Shown: one piece after another, positions 5,066 to 10,737 of the stretch
Layout: every line of letters begins with the position of its first letter
Position numbering within the stretch: position 1 is the first letter of the stretch
Assembly (NCBI RefSeq): GCF_001953865.1
Contig: NZ_MQUQ01000020.1
Coordinates: 204,126 to 268,125 of the forward strand
From: Amycolatopsis coloradensis
GTDB taxonomy: Bacteria; Actinomycetota; Actinomycetes; Mycobacteriales; Pseudonocardiaceae
DNA length: 64,000 bases
Direction: 5' to 3'
Translations under genes and position numbers: made by a program
The notes under the pieces: generated by a model
Database searches by the model: none
Told to the model about the DNA's origin: nothing
What the model saw: only the letters and a program-made list of their open reading frames with translations

Positions 5066-5788
5066 GTGTTCGACCAAACCGCCCGTTCACCGGGTTCCTC
5101 CGTCAACGCCAGGCTGGCGTGGCTGACCGCGCAGCTGTCGTCACCCACCCAGGGCCCGCCCGCGGGCAGGCTCGCACGCCGCTGGGTACCCGCCCGGTTC
5201 ACAGCGGACGGGATACCGGTGAAGAGGCGGTGGTTCGCCGTGATGGCCGTGGTCATCGCGGTGGCCGTGATCGTGGCAGGCGCGATCACTTTGTTCGGAC
5301 ACCGGCCAGGGGCGGAGCCCCTTCCGCCCCTGCCGTCGGCCAAGGCCGCCGGAGACGTCCCCGCCGCGGCGGCCAAGGCGTCTTTGGTGGTCAGCGTCGT
5401 CGGCAGGGTGGTCAAACCCGGCCTGGTCACGATCCCTTCGGGCGCACGGGTCGCCGATGCCCTCACGGCGGCCGGTGGGGCACAGCCCGGAACGGATCTG
5501 ACGGGGCTGAACCTGGCGAGGCGGCTCACCGACGGCGAGCAGGTGGCCGTCGGCGTTCCCGTTCCGGCCGCGGCCGGAACGGGAACGCCACCCGGGAAGC
5601 TCGACCTGAACACGGCCACGGCCGAACAACTAGACACCCTGCCCGGGGTCGGCGAAGTGATGGCCAAACGCATCGTCGACTGGCGGTCCGGGCACGGTGG
5701 GTTCACCTCGGTCGAGCAACTCCGTGACGTAGAAGGGATCGGCGAAAGTAAATTCAAGAAAGTCCGGGAATTGGTGTCCGTCGGATGA
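5066..5788 (+). CDS. comEA: ComEA-like DNA-binding membrane protein
   Basis: A 240-residue protein with a cytoplasmic N-terminus, one membrane helix (about 57-77), an SLBB-type segment (VVGRVVKPGLVTIPSGARVADAL) and a C-terminal helix-hairpin-helix pair starting LDLNTATAEQLDTLPGVGEV. ComEA family proteins capture DNA outside the membrane and pass it to ComEC. GTG start. It overlaps comEC by four bases. Full competence machinery is not visible here, and natural uptake is not established for this group. Confidence 0.92.
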   Translation: MFDQTARSPGSSVNARLAWLTAQLSSPTQGPPAGRLARRWVPARFTADGIPVKRRWFAVMAVVIAVAVIVAGAITLFGHRPGAEPLPPLPSAKAAGDVPAAAAKASLVVSVVGRVVKPGLVTIPSGARVADALTAAGGAQPGTDLTGLNLARRLTDGEQVAVGVPVPAAAGTGTPPGKLDLNTATAEQLDTLPGVGEVMAKRIVDWRSGHGGFTSVEQLRDVEGIGESKFKKVRELVSVG

Positions 5789-8190
5789 ACCCGTCCGCCG
5801 ATCCGTCCGAAGTGGACACCACGTCGTGGCGAGGTCAAGACCTGCGGTTGATACCGGCCGCGGCGACGGCCTGGCTCGGCACTCTTTCCGGGCTGCTCGG
5901 CGGCTGGTGGATCACGATGCTCTGCGGTGCGGCCGCCGTGGTGCTCGCGATCGCCGCCGGAGTCCGCGCCCACCGGAAGGCGTCCCGGTGGGTGGCGGGC
6001 CTGGGCGCGCTGGCGGTCCTCGGCGCGCTCACGGCGGGCCCGGTGGCGCTGCGGATCCGGGCCGCCGAACACGACGACCTCCGTGCCGCCGCCGCACGGG
6101 GGAGTGACGCCACCATGAGGGTGGTGGTCACCGAGCGGCCACGTCCGGTCCGCGGCGCCGGATACGCCGATCGCCAGGCAGGCACCCGCCTGGTGGTCAT
6201 CGCCGCGACGGTGGACGCCGTGGTGGCCGATGAGCGGGCAGTGGATTCGACCGGCCGGATCCTCCTGCTCGCTCCTGCCGAGGGGTGGACGGGCCTGCTG
6301 CCCGGGCAGCAGGTCACCGCTTCCGGGCGGCTCGCGCCGGCCAAGGGGGCCGAATTGACGGTCGCGGTCCTCTCGGTGCGTGGCCCGCCGTCAGCCCTCG
6401 GACCGGCGCCCTGGTGGCAGCGAGCCGCGGAATCGCTGCGCACCGGGCTCCGGGAGCTGTGCGCCGTCCTCCCGGAGGAGCAGGCCGGTCTCGTGCCCGG
6501 ACTGGTCGTGGGGGACACGAGCACGCTGTCCCCGAGGGTCGAACGCGAGTTCACGGACTCCGGCATGTCCCACCTGATGGCCGTGAGCGGTGGGAACGTG
6601 GCGATCGTCTGCGGCTCGATCCTTCTTCTGTTGAGGGTGCTCCGGGTCGGGCCGCGGACGTCCGCCGCCGCGGCCGCCGCGGGGCTCGCCGGGTTCGTGG
6701 TCCTCGCCGGGCCCGCGCCCAGCGTGCTCCGCGCCGGGGTGATGGGTGCGGTCGGGTTGCTGGCACTCGCCCTGGGGCGCCGGGGTTCGGCGCTGCCCGC
6801 GATGGCGTTCGCGGTGGCGGGGCTCGTCGTGGCTGATCCCGCGATGGCCGCCGACTTCGGCTTCGCCCTTTCGGTGCTGGCCACGGCAGGGCTGGTCCTG
6901 CTGGCTCCGAGGTGGGCCGAGTGGCTGGTCGGCCGCGGTGTGCCGTCCGGCTACGCCGAGGGACTGGCCGTCCCGCTGGCCGCGTTCGTGATGACGGCAC
7001 CGGTCATCGCGGGCATGGCAGGATCGGTCAGTCTCGTCTCGGTGGCGACCAATGTGCTCGCCGCCCCGGTGGTCGCCCCGGCAACCGTGTTCGGCGTGCT
7101 CGCCACCGTCGTCGGACCGTGGTGGCCGTCGGCGGGCAGGTTGCTGGTCCGCCTGACCGAGCCCGAGGCGAGCTGGCTCATCACCGTGGCCCGTCACGGC
7201 GCCCGCGCGCCGGGAGCGGTCGTGGACTGGCCGGATGGCTGGTGGGGCGGGCTTTTGGCGGCCGGTCTGCTCGTCGTGCTGCTCGTCGCCATCCGGCTGC
7301 GCCACGCCAGGATCCTGCTGGCGGTCGCCTTGGCAGGCGGACTCCTCGTCTTCGTGCCGGTGCGGGTGCTGGCCCCGGCGTGGCCACCGGCTTCCTGGAG
7401 TGCCGTCGCCTGCGACGTCGGACAGGGTGACGCCGTCGCTCTCGCCACGACCGAGCCGGGGAGGGCGGTCCTGGTCGACACCGGCCCGGAACCGGGGCCG
7501 GTCGACGAATGCCTGAGCAGGCTCGGGGTGAACCGTGTTCCGCTGATCGTGCTGAGCCATCTGCACGCCGACCACATCGGCGGTCTCGAATCCGTCTTCG
7601 AGGGCCGGTCGGTCGGCGCGGTCGCCGTCGGCCCTGGCCGGGCACCCGCGTGGGCGTGGCAGCAGGTCGCCGACGAGACCGCGCGCCGCGGGATTCCCTT
7701 ACTGGAGCTGGGGATCGGGCAACGGCTGGACTGGCCGGGACTGTCACTGGAGGTACTGGGGCCGCGTTATGTCACTCGGCGATCGGTCCTCGAACAGGAC
7801 GGTACGGTGATCAACAACGGTTCCGTCGTCCTGCGGGCAGGGACGCCCGCGGGCCGGATGCTGCTGACCGGCGACGTCGAACTCGCCGCGCAGGCGGACC
7901 TGATGGCCGAGGGAGCCGACCTGCGTGCCGAGGTCCTGAAGGTTCCGCACCACGGAAGTCGTTACACGGCACCGGATTTCCTCAACACCGTCGCACCACG
8001 CGCCGCGTTGGTGAGTGTCGGTGCCGGAAACACCTATGGTCACCCGAACAAGTCCACTTTGGACAATCTGACGGCTGTCGGCGCTTCGATCGCCAGAACC
8101 GACACGGATGGCGACACCGCGGTCGTCACCGACGCACGAGGGCTCGCACTGGTGCGCCGGGGTGAGCCCCGCGGCCCGCCTCATTCCTGA
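5785..8190 (+). CDS. comEC: ComEC/Rec2 family membrane channel
   Basis: An 801-residue polytopic protein. It has an N-terminal DUF4131-type region with membrane helices, the competence core beginning around EQAGLVPGLVVGDTSTL and SGMSHLMAVSGGNVAI, about ten hydrophobic helices, and a C-terminal metallo-beta-lactamase domain. That domain shows VACDVGQGDAVAL and the metal-binding SHLHADHIGG, with a second VPHHGS motif. The family moves single-stranded DNA across the membrane. Translationally coupled to comEA. Its TGA stop lies inside the terminator hairpin that follows. Confidence 0.94.
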   Translation: MNPSADPSEVDTTSWRGQDLRLIPAAATAWLGTLSGLLGGWWITMLCGAAAVVLAIAAGVRAHRKASRWVAGLGALAVLGALTAGPVALRIRAAEHDDLRAAAARGSDATMRVVVTERPRPVRGAGYADRQAGTRLVVIAATVDAVVADERAVDSTGRILLLAPAEGWTGLLPGQQVTASGRLAPAKGAELTVAVLSVRGPPSALGPAPWWQRAAESLRTGLRELCAVLPEEQAGLVPGLVVGDTSTLSPRVEREFTDSGMSHLMAVSGGNVAIVCGSILLLLRVLRVGPRTSAAAAAAGLAGFVVLAGPAPSVLRAGVMGAVGLLALALGRRGSALPAMAFAVAGLVVADPAMAADFGFALSVLATAGLVLLAPRWAEWLVGRGVPSGYAEGLAVPLAAFVMTAPVIAGMAGSVSLVSVATNVLAAPVVAPATVFGVLATVVGPWWPSAGRLLVRLTEPEASWLITVARHGARAPGAVVDWPDGWWGGLLAAGLLVVLLVAIRLRHARILLAVALAGGLLVFVPVRVLAPAWPPASWSAVACDVGQGDAVALATTEPGRAVLVDTGPEPGPVDECLSRLGVNRVPLIVLSHLHADHIGGLESVFEGRSVGAVAVGPGRAPAWAWQQVADETARRGIPLLELGIGQRLDWPGLSLEVLGPRYVTRRSVLEQDGTVINNGSVVLRAGTPAGRMLLTGDVELAAQADLMAEGADLRAEVLKVPHHGSRYTAPDFLNTVAPRAALVSVGAGNTYGHPNKSTLDNLTAVGASIARTDTDGDTAVVTDARGLALVRRGEPRGPPHS

Positions 8191-8198
8191 GGCGGGCC
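8173..8198. terminator. Bidirectional hairpin between comEC and the thrC-like gene
   Basis: GGCCCGCCTCA-TTCC-TGAGGCGGGCC forms a perfect 11-bp stem with a 4-base loop between two convergent genes. The comEC stop codon (8188-8190) is the start of the right arm. No U-tract follows, as is usual in high-GC actinobacteria. Confidence 0.8.
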
Positions 8199-8207
8199 GG
8201 CGGGAAC

Positions 8208-9473
8208 TCAGATGCCGAGTGCCTCGCGGACCGCGTCGGCCGAGGCGCTGACGGTTGCCTTCGGGCCGACCCTGTCCTCGATGGCGTCGAGCGTTTTGAG
8301 GCCGTCACCGGTGATCAGCAGGACGATTTCCTCGTCCGGGTCGAGTTTGCCGGTCTCGATGAGCTTCTTGGCCGTCGCGACGGTGACCCCGCCGGCAGTC
8401 TCGGTGAAGATGCCCTCGGTGCGGGCGAGCAGCCGGATGCCTTCGACGACCTCTTCATCGGTGACGTCTTCGATCGCACCGCCGGTACGTTTGACCACGT
8501 CGAGGACGTAGGGGCCGTCGGCCGGGTTGCCGATCGCGAGCGATCGGGCGATCGTGTCCGGCTTGACCGGTTGCACCACGTCGTGACCCGCGCGGAAGGC
8601 CGCCGAGACGGGGGAGCAGCCGGTGGCCTGCGCGCCGAACACCTTGTACGGCGTCTCGTCGACGAGGCCGAGCTGCCCGAACTCACGGAAGCCCTTGTCC
8701 ACCTTGGTGAGCTGGGAACCGGAGGCGATCGGCACCACGATCTGAGAGGGAAGCCGCCAGCCGAGCTGCTCGGCGACCTCGAAGGCCAGCGTCTTGGAGC
8801 CTTCGGAGTAGTAGGGCCGGACGTTCACGTTGACGAACGCCCAGCTCTCCTGCTCGGCGGCTAGCTGGGTGGCGAGCCGGTTCACGTCGTCGTAGTTGCC
8901 GTCGACCGCGATCAGGTCGCCGTCGTACACGGCGGTGGTGAGGATCTTCGCGCGCTCGAGGGTCTTCGGGATCAGCACGACCGACCGCCAGCCGGCGCGG
9001 GCCGCCGCGGCGGCGACGGCGTTGGCCAGGTTGCCGGTCGACGGACACGCGAGTACATCGAAGCCGAATTCGCGTGCTGCGGCCAGCGCGACGGCGACCA
9101 CGCGGTCCTTGAACGAGTGCGTCGGGTTGCCGGTGTCGTCCTTGACCCAGACCTTCTTGACACCCAAGGCTTTCGCGAGCCTGTCGGCCCGGACGAGCCG
9201 GGTGGCGCCGGGTTCGGTGTTGGGGATTTCTTCCACGTTCGACGGAACGGGAAGGAGTTTCTTGTAGCGCCAGATGTTTTTCGGTCCGGCTTCGATGTCC
9301 TCGCGGCGCACGCGGCCGAAGTCGTAGGCGACCTCGAGCGGCGAGAAGTCCTCGGCGGAAACGAATTCGGGGGCGAGTGGCTGCCGGTGTCCCTCTTCCT
9401 TCGACACCAGTTCGACGGCCGGTCCGAGATCCGGGGTCTTGGTGGTGGAGGTCGTGCCGAGGGTTGCGGTCAT
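8208..9473 (-). CDS. thrC: Threonine synthase or MetM-like homologue (PLP-dependent)
   Basis: A 421-residue fold-type II PLP enzyme of the threonine synthase family. The PLP-binding lysine is Lys122 in NPTHSFKDRVV, and the phosphate-binding SGSQL and ACPSTGNLANAV loops are present. Housekeeping threonine synthase makes threonine from O-phosphohomoserine. This copy stands alone rather than with hom and thrB, and is preceded by a clear SAM-I riboswitch, a methionine-pathway control. I recall threonine-synthase homologues in Streptomyces (called MetM) that make homocysteine from O-phosphohomoserine with a sulfur-carrier protein; this gene could be one. No carrier gene is adjacent. Family assignment is firm; the product made is open. 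Confidence 0.88.
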   Translation of the reverse strand: MTATLGTTSTTKTPDLGPAVELVSKEEGHRQPLAPEFVSAEDFSPLEVAYDFGRVRREDIEAGPKNIWRYKKLLPVPSNVEEIPNTEPGATRLVRADRLAKALGVKKVWVKDDTGNPTHSFKDRVVAVALAAAREFGFDVLACPSTGNLANAVAAAAARAGWRSVVLIPKTLERAKILTTAVYDGDLIAVDGNYDDVNRLATQLAAEQESWAFVNVNVRPYYSEGSKTLAFEVAEQLGWRLPSQIVVPIASGSQLTKVDKGFREFGQLGLVDETPYKVFGAQATGCSPVSAAFRAGHDVVQPVKPDTIARSLAIGNPADGPYVLDVVKRTGGAIEDVTDEEVVEGIRLLARTEGIFTETAGGVTVATAKKLIETGKLDPDEEIVLLITGDGLKTLDAIEDRVGPKATVSASADAVREALGI

Positions 9474-9487
9474 CGCGAGGTCCTTTC

Positions 9488-9616
9488 CTCATCTGCCCCG
9501 CCGTGGCGGGCCGGAATTGGCACCGTGTTCGTCAGCTATCCCGCGATCGCGGGATGACAGGCTGACGCCGGTTGCCGGGGCTTCATCGGGCCGTTCCCTC
9601 TGCCCCTCTGGATGAG
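9488..9616 (-). promoter_or_regulatory. SAM-I (S-box) riboswitch
   Basis: Read on the minus strand, the leader contains the S-box core: CTCATCCAGAGGGGCAGAGG, then GGCCCGATGAAGCCCC, GGCAACC, later GGTGCCAATTCC, and closing GCAGATGAG. P1 pairs CTCATC (9616-9611) with GATGAG (9493-9488). A P3 hairpin is topped by TCCCGCGATCGCGGGA, and a P4 stem is CCCGC/GCGGG. The 3' strand of P1 runs straight into the ribosome site (AAAGGA, then seven bases, then ATG at 9473). So the likely output is translational: ligand-bound P1 would crowd the ribosome site and switch the gene off. Confidence 0.92.
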
Positions 9617-9753
9617 CGGTATTCGATTGTCGGCACGCGTGTCATCGCGTCGCCTCGCCAACACCGTACGACATAGGGCTGGCGTGGGGCCACCGTGCCC
9701 GCAACACATCACCGGACAAAGCACACGAGAGGAGGAGTGGCAGGATCGTCACC

Positions 9754-10737
9754 GTGACGACGCAAGCTTCCGCCCCATCGCCGCTGGTCCTGGTTCTCGG
9801 TGAGGAAGAGCTGCTGATCGAACGCGCCATCCGCGCCGCTTCGGACGCGGCCAAAGCGGCCGATCCGACGGCGGACCTCAGCCGGATCAGGGTGTCGGAC
9901 CTCACAGTCCCCGCACTCGCGGAGATGGTCAGCCCCTCGCTGTTCGCCGAGGGCAGGGTGATCGTCCTCGAATCCGCGCACGACATCTCGCAGGAGCTCG
10001 CCGACGGGGTGATGGCCTACGTCAAGGCGCCCGCCGACGGCATCGTGCTCGTCGTCGTGCACAGCGGAGGCGGCCGGAGCAAGGCCGCGAAGGCGCTTCC
10101 CGCGGCCTTGAAGAAGGCCGGGGCGGAGGTCGTCGAGTGCCCGAAACTGACCAAGCCCGCCGAGCGGGAATCCTTTGTCCGCAACGAGGTCCGCCGGGTC
10201 GGCGGGAAGATCGACGGCGCCGCCGTGCTCGCCCTGATCGACGCCGTCGGCTCGGATCTGCGCGAGTTGTCGTCGGCCGCGACACAGCTTGTCGCGGACG
10301 CCGGTGGAACGGTCGATGAACAGGCGGTCCGCCGCTACCACCGGGGCCGCGCGGACGTGAACGGATTCGCCGTCGCCGAGAAGGCCGTCGCCGGGGACAT
10401 GGCGGCGGCGCTGGAGTCGCTGCGCTGGGCGATGCAGCTGGGTGTTCCGTACGTGCTGGTCGCGGACGCTCTCGCCGACGCCGTCCGGACGATCGCGCGG
10501 GTGTCCGGCGCCGGCCGCGGCAATCCGAACCAGATGGCGGGCGAGCTGGGGATGCCGCCGTGGAAGGTGCGCAAGGCGCAGGGGCAGGCCCGCGGTTGGG
10601 GACAGGACGGCCTCGCCACCGCGATGCGGGTCGTCGCCCGGCTCAACGCCGAGGTCAAGGGTGCCGCGGCCGACCCGGAGTACGCGCTGGAACGCGCCGT
10701 CCTGGAAGTCGTCGTCGCCCACGGCACAAGCCGCTGA
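9754..10737 (+). CDS. holA: DNA polymerase III delta subunit
   Basis: Clamp-loader subunit that opens the beta clamp. It is a 327-residue protein with N-terminal PLVLVLGEEELLIERAI and the family's middle segment (VAEKAVAGDMAAALESLRWAMQLGVP). The position between comEC and rpsT is the conserved actinobacterial location. GTG start after GAGGAG at about 9733. Divergent from the thrC-like gene; the promoter of each lies in 9617-9753. Confidence 0.93.
   Translation: MTTQASAPSPLVLVLGEEELLIERAIRAASDAAKAADPTADLSRIRVSDLTVPALAEMVSPSLFAEGRVIVLESAHDISQELADGVMAYVKAPADGIVLVVVHSGGGRSKAAKALPAALKKAGAEVVECPKLTKPAERESFVRNEVRRVGGKIDGAAVLALIDAVGSDLRELSSAATQLVADAGGTVDEQAVRRYHRGRADVNGFAVAEKAVAGDMAAALESLRWAMQLGVPYVLVADALADAVRTIARVSGAGRGNPNQMAGELGMPPWKVRKAQGQARGWGQDGLATAMRVVARLNAEVKGAAADPEYALERAVLEVVVAHGTSR

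Follow-up and report, generated by a model that had tools for sequence, protein, structure and literature searches.

A gene of Amycolatopsis coloradensis that curated models recognize as threonine synthase is probably metM, encoding an O-phosphohomoserine-dependent homocysteine synthase that is repressed through a SAM-I riboswitch and most likely served by the sulfur carrier CysO. The gene lies at 8208..9473 on the minus strand of the window, that is, of the entire 64,000-nucleotide stretch of DNA analyzed; it starts with ATG and, as judged from the open reading frame, profile match, alignments and structure comparison, encodes a metM-type protein of 421 aa with PLP fold type II. The initial annotation of this DNA had read the product as an enzyme of the methionine pathway forming homocysteine, and the idea proved right in substance. 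At the level of sequence comparison, it is supported by the riboswitch, by a second thrC in the same genome, by SAM-I elements in all metM loci tested, by carrier genes following metM in 26 of 40 genomes outside Pseudonocardiaceae, and by 53 of 160 Pseudonocardiaceae genomes in which MetM occurs without the other homocysteine routes searched for. According to the accessible part of PMC12172450, the enzyme type and its riboswitch have already been published for Streptomyces (Hasebe et al. 2024). As far as our limited literature searches reach, the missing carrier with CysO as its substitute, a possible reliance on MetM in about one third of the sampled Pseudonocardiaceae genomes, and the concerted replacement of a cysteine motif are new.

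For the reaction of the window MetM, the sense of its regulation and its sulfur carrier, we infer the following scheme. Hom and ThrB would make O-phosphohomoserine, the precursor common to the threonine and methionine branches, and MetM would exchange its phosphate for protein-bound sulfide, yielding homocysteine and then methionine. In the host genome, the sulfur donor would be thiocarboxylated CysO, common to the cysteine synthase CysM and MetM. At high SAM, formation of the P1 helix overlapping the ribosome site would turn off translation of metM, and O-phosphohomoserine would then pass to the separate threonine synthase.

The initial annotation had described a full S-box aptamer on the minus strand, which is confirmed: the SAM-I covariance model it had named as a check, RF00162, matches positions 9618-9486 (9486..9618, minus strand) over its full length (1-108) with 78.7 bits, well above the gathering score of 44.4 (E 7.9e-17), and this is the sole match above any gathering score in the 64-kb window. 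The aptamer had also been placed seven bases before the ribosome site, and this is wrong, the last base of the aptamer (9486) being already the first base of AAAGGA (9481..9486, minus strand), the likely Shine-Dalgarno sequence of the gene, seven bases upstream of the ATG. Twelve bases separate the aptamer from this start codon (9473). The 3′ strand of P1, GATGAG (9488..9493, minus strand), pairs with CTCATC at 9616-9611, according to the RF00162 alignment, the sequence and a pairing check, and it overlaps a second Shine-Dalgarno-like run, GAGGA (9490-9486). Folding of the leader alone predicts two states, one with P1 formed and another in which, once P1 is open, CCTC (9477..9480, minus strand) can pair with GAGG (9490-9487) and expose AAAGGA in a six-base loop. 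The form of the hairpin downstream of P1 differs between relatives, and a second switching hairpin after P1 scored better than shuffled sequences in 43 of 62 distinct leaders; such a hairpin is plausible in the window leader as a lead from modeling. A promoter and terminator scan of 8100-9760 gave no signal above chance. In the portion of Barrick and Breaker (2007, PMC2258182) that could be consulted, the direct translational type of SAM-I riboswitch has the ribosome site within the 3′ side of P1; the window leader resembles this type in having a ribosome-binding-site-like sequence there, with no basic difference from what that portion describes. An earlier survey, likewise consulted in part, reported methionine and threonine operons of Actinobacteria as being without conserved upstream RNA structures (PMC1262725).

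The gene had been described as standing alone, away from hom and thrB, and rightly so: it is flanked by a ComEC-like gene (5785-8190, plus strand; 176.5 bits, just below the 190 of the model) and, on the other side, by holA (9754-10737, plus strand). Lys122 of the SFKDR motif (9108..9110, minus strand), invariant in 61 aligned sequences, is the expected PLP-binding lysine, as judged from what is generally known of fold type II enzymes. In the alignments, codons 250-254 (8712..8726, minus strand) read ASGSQ where four solved threonine synthases have the GNAGN loop, and A250, S251, G252 and Q254 are invariant in 61 MetM rows. The ThrC segment VN-SVNPxRxEGQKT is likewise replaced, by VNVNVRPYYSEGSKT in the window protein, and both replacements are mostly invariant in the same 61 rows. 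The closest structures to the window protein are solved threonine synthases. With the curated thrC model TIGR00260 (cut-off 167.1 bits), the window protein scores 285.2 bits and the hom-linked ThrC of the same genome 296.5 bits; since both pass, the model cannot separate them. Because this equivalog model calls a MetM-type protein threonine synthase by such a wide margin, automatic annotation tends to mislabel the gene.

The host genome (9.05 Mb, 57 contigs) carries its housekeeping thrC on another contig (C2). This gene, with hom on one side and thrB on the other, occupies the canonical place of ThrC, which the window gene does not; its product has 353 aa and shares 35% identity with the window protein. 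The second thrC that the initial annotation had proposed looking for beside hom and thrB is thus present, and the window gene is not the only one of its kind in the genome. As to the further suggestion that the window gene is a second, non-housekeeping copy, there is a dedicated thrC in hom-thrC-thrB, with the reservation that in Pseudonocardiaceae the window gene belongs to the core and not to the accessory genes. Two SAM-I elements were found in the host genome, that of the window and one (G000:C45:482512-482602, plus strand) ahead of a gene whose MetN-like product is an ABC transporter ATPase carrying a NIL domain. In addition, metY (NF005872, 820.9 bits, cut-off 703) lies directly ahead of a metX-like gene, and two routes to homocysteine therefore probably coexist. 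MetM would then not be the sole route in this organism, and its role there could be minor.

MetM was found in 159 of the 160 sampled Pseudonocardiaceae genomes, the genome without a match being 93% complete, and a class-wide sample gave matches with E values no higher than 1e-60 in 251 of 394 Actinomycetes genomes. The nearest named MetM proteins, those of Amycolatopsis azurea, A. orientalis and A. decaplanina, are 98% identical to the window protein. A SAM-I element precedes metM in 20 of 20 unnamed loci searched with the Rfam model. With a model of our own, all 80 named loci were positive (80 of 80), as were 36 of 36 others, four of which belong to genomes already in the 20-locus set; a subset of the 36 rerun with the Rfam model was positive in 14 of 14. 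Our model matched the MetN locus and left the thrC locus unmatched; having been built from 17 of the metM leaders, it leans towards such leaders, and the Rfam results are independent of it. Judging from record titles, almost every one of the 80 named loci comes from Pseudonocardiaceae, with a few from Actinopolyspora, unclassified MAGs and a record titled Nocardia. In Nonomuraea gerenzanensis, a metM copy 65% identical to the window protein stands in the order riboswitch, metM, 91-codon carrier gene. The record in question (NZ_LT559118.1), filed as a plasmid, is at 11.85 Mb probably the chromosome. Since it shares the upstream riboswitch and groups in a single tree with copies that have metO beside them, the window gene appears to be an ortholog of MetM, as compared with the metM copies of the sampled genomes.

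How far Pseudonocardiaceae depend on MetM can be gauged from the distribution of other homocysteine routes, the searches for MetM, MetX, MetA and HcyBio having drawn the same 160 genomes, as judged by handle numbers. MetX matches at E 1e-20 occur in 109 genomes, three of them only weak (E 1e-44 to 1e-47), which leaves 106; one of these 106 genes is split over two frames (G528:C1:4062271-4063304). The curated MetX cut-off of 500 bits was reached by no Pseudonocardiaceae match, nor by any of seven matching controls. MetA was found in two genomes, both with MetX, and HcyBio in none of the 160. Consequently, 53 of 160 genomes have MetM without strong MetX, MetA or HcyBio, the single MetM-less genome being left out of this count; in the good-quality subset, 46 of 149 genomes are without any MetX match. 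Two or more PLP enzymes of cysteine and methionine metabolism were present in all 28 other Pseudonocardiaceae genomes searched, none of which has a strong MetX. Such enzymes cannot form homocysteine from homoserine without an acyl-homoserine donor. The lack of detected MetX, MetA and HcyBio in the 53 genomes, together with SAM-I control, fits MetM as the homocysteine route, and about one third of the sampled Pseudonocardiaceae genomes may rely on it.

The distribution of sulfur-carrier genes is uneven. A carrier gene lies beside metM in 29 of 167 loci, some of which overlap and some of which come two to a genome. Counted by genome, a same-strand carrier gene follows metM in the 26 of 40 genomes outside Pseudonocardiaceae mentioned above and in none of the Pseudonocardiaceae loci; the other 14 of the 40 have none within the flank available, about 0.9-1.5 kb downstream for most. 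No carrier gene flanks metM in locus L003, covered for 1.5 kb on each side, or in any of the 80 named loci; in 71 of these 80 the flanks span 4.5 kb or more in either direction, and downstream all of them reach 1.6 kb or further. The initial annotation had called for a search of the genome for a ThiS/MoaD-like carrier, and such carriers are indeed there, while the expected partner beside the window gene is absent. Above the cut-off, the host genome has three: CysO (in mec-cysO-cysM), ThiS (in thiOSG) and MoaD (beside MoaA). No dedicated metO was found among them, and a fourth carrier-like match is sub-threshold (19 bits) and lies within a 1465-codon frame. The MetX-less Pseudonocardiaceae genome G368, whose MetM is closest among named ones to that of Prauserella salsuginis, has the same three carriers. 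All 32 CysO loci examined (31 genomes) have a CysM motif nearby; among 40 Pseudonocardiaceae genomes, CysO is backed by an adjacent CysM motif in 31 and by match length alone in eight, and G429 (97% complete, 730 contigs), which has MetM, gave no CysO match. Mean identity between MetO and CysO is 54% (range 41-66), compared with 70% within MetO and 82% within CysO. In one genome outside Pseudonocardiaceae (G033, 94% complete), which encodes MetM, the sole carrier detected is CysO beside CysM, with neither ThiS nor MoaD and with no carrier gene within 1.5 kb downstream of metM. Another (G119, 82% complete) has MetM and no carrier match of any kind. No Mec-type peptidase was found near metM in 105 loci of at least 7 kb, searched with one motif and with L012 as positive control. 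By elimination among CysO, ThiS and MoaD, and from the resemblance of CysO to MetO, CysO appears the likeliest donor, and with modest confidence we lean towards CysO of mec-cysO-cysM supplying sulfur to MetM in the host genome. The literature matches listed included no metM without metO and no CysO feeding MetM, a weak negative, as most subscription papers lay outside the search.

A dedicated metO elsewhere was considered and rejected: 16 additional ThiS-family proteins retrieved from 16 Pseudonocardiaceae genomes (L286-L301) are other types of carrier, with at most 49% identity to MetO. By eye, 14 are of one kind and two of another, the main type reading ...RRYVNFYVDGEECR...PSVAGG.

With regard to the donor, the main rival, which we regard as unlikely, is that a homocysteine synthase of the MetM type draws on free sulfide or some other small donor and works without a carrier protein in Pseudonocardiaceae. 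The carrier-free Pseudonocardiaceae loci, the N-terminal motif altered in part of the family, and the occurrence of MetM without a CysO match in G119 and G429 all speak for it, and a carrier is most simply lost where the enzyme can do without one; against it, Hasebe et al. are said to have found that in Streptomyces the donor, with MetO, is a thiocarboxylated carrier, and most of the 40 Pseudonocardiaceae genomes encode the MetO relative CysO. Still less probable, in our estimate, is that MetM is served by ThiS, by MoaD or indiscriminately by several carriers, charged by one common activating enzyme. All three carriers coexist in the host genome, and a study of the thiosugar pathway of Amycolatopsis orientalis reportedly found sharing among ThiS, CysO and MoaD-type carriers, yet CysO, the one of the three with a scored identity to MetO, is the most MetO-like on inspection of the sequences, and G033 lacks both ThiS and MoaD by our search.

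That the gene is instead a second threonine synthase, or one with deaminase side activity, placed under SAM control, we consider very improbable. The acceptance of the window protein by the curated threonine-synthase model (285 vs 167 bits) counts against the MetM assignment, as does the structural proximity to solved threonine synthases; a cyanobacterial relative, that of Microcystis, is moreover reported to make threonine from O-phosphohomoserine (PMC12172450, in the part consulted). Set against this are the dedicated thrC in hom-thrC-thrB, the mostly invariant replacement of GNAGN and VN-SVNPxRxEGQKT in the MetM rows, the little sense that SAM repression makes for threonine, and the 53 of 160 genomes that would then be left without a known homocysteine route.

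The MetM of the window also differs from many of its relatives near the N terminus. Aligned relatives outside Pseudonocardiaceae have CxxC...CxxCFGP near residues 24-42, where the window protein (codons 24-42, 9348..9404, minus strand) reads SKEE...SAEDFSPLEV, with S24, E27, S39 and D42 in place of the cysteines; all four are replaced (SxxE...SxxD) in one clade, to which the host genome belongs. Among the 80 named loci, four cysteines are present in 35, none in 42 and one in three. Five MetM copies (L068, L083, L087, L309 and L315) keep a single cysteine, at the third position, in an otherwise cysteine-free motif. In a tree of 93 sequences, built with the motif segment left out and after 29 of 121 rows had been removed by hand as near-copies, two changes are required to account for the 34 altered rows; constraining these rows to group together is not rejected (p-AU 0.85) and yields the higher likelihood, so that a single origin of the swap is likely. 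The four-cysteine copy of Sciscionella marina (L111) branches basally to the clade without cysteines; it could be the sister of that clade, or the motif could have reappeared in it. Both predicted structures keep the two N-terminal strands, with a block pLDDT of about 90. Similarity to zinc ribbons is sub-threshold (16.4 bits, cut-off 24), and the lists from VIA-align contain no zinc-ribbon protein, which is uninformative because the whole enzyme dominates them; the motif cysteines may bind zinc, as their pattern suggests. Loss of the cysteines is not tied to loss of MetX: there were 14 changed and eight four-cysteine copies among 22 genomes without strong MetX, and four and five, respectively, among nine with MetX, counts that are not a fair sample, as high-identity rows supplied the first 11 genomes of the 22. 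Nor does it account for metO loss, as cysteine-bearing Pseudonocardiaceae are also without a carrier gene, and so, within the flank, are the 14 carrier-less genomes among the 40 from other families (f11, f15 and f34), all with cysteines.

A joint picture can be offered tentatively, as one possibility. CysO would feed both CysM and MetM in Pseudonocardiaceae, with Mec possibly releasing both amino acids; SAM would gate the common sulfide pool through translation of MetM; the motif swap of one clade would perhaps free MetM from metal; and MetM could sense SAM as a protein, since its N-terminal part resembles the SAM-activated plant threonine synthase. If the MetM assignment is true, the 53 sampled Pseudonocardiaceae genomes without detected MetX, MetA and HcyBio gain a homocysteine route, and the curated model would name the gene threonine synthase wherever it is present, as in the 251 of 394 sampled Actinomycetes genomes. 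The missing carrier raises the sharp question of whether CysO serves two amino-acid pathways. Since many methylated antibiotics come from Amycolatopsis and related genera, SAM control of methionine supply matters for these bacteria.

Several known systems can be compared with that of the window. In the CysO-CysM-Mec system of Mycobacterium, a PLP enzyme of fold type II takes sulfur from a ubiquitin-like carrier and converts O-phosphoserine to cysteine. It resembles MetM/MetO in this pairing of fold and carrier, CysO being about half identical to MetO, and differs from MetM in its substrate, its product and its enzyme, which is of the CysK/CysM rather than the ThrC type. Hasebe et al. are said to have described MetM of Streptomyces as an O-phosphohomoserine-dependent homocysteine synthase working with the carrier MetO. 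The consulted part of PMC12172450 cites them (2024, doi 10.1128/aem.01247-24) for the discovery of the homocysteine synthase MetM in Streptomyces, states that MetM prevents methionine auxotrophy there, and mentions a SAM riboswitch upstream of metM in S. albulus. As far as that source goes, the window gene is like S. albulus MetM in being a threonine-synthase homolog with an upstream SAM riboswitch, apart from thrC. The window system is unlike S. albulus MetM/MetO in that no metO was found adjacent or elsewhere, the four cysteines of the relatives' motif are replaced, and metX-metY is also present. In Actinomycetes relatives whose MetM shares 63-73% identity with the window protein, metM is often followed by a carrier gene, as in MetM/MetO. 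The same part of PMC12172450 describes the ThrC of Microcystis aeruginosa as a MetM relative, at 51.6% to that of S. albulus, which makes threonine from O-phosphohomoserine and deaminates threonine and whose gene has a putative metO-like neighbor; its authors doubted that the cyanobacterial relative fully works as MetM in vivo, and saw an unidentified peak near methionine. Kinship with MetM is thus common to this protein and the window gene, whereas the Microcystis gene, as described there, is without a SAM riboswitch and its product makes and deaminates threonine. Finally, plant threonine synthase is activated by SAM, bound at the dimer interface (PMC9081730 and PMC6023240, as far as consulted), and the Arabidopsis enzyme (PDB 2c2b), 24% identical to the window MetM, differs from it in making threonine and in being SAM-activated.
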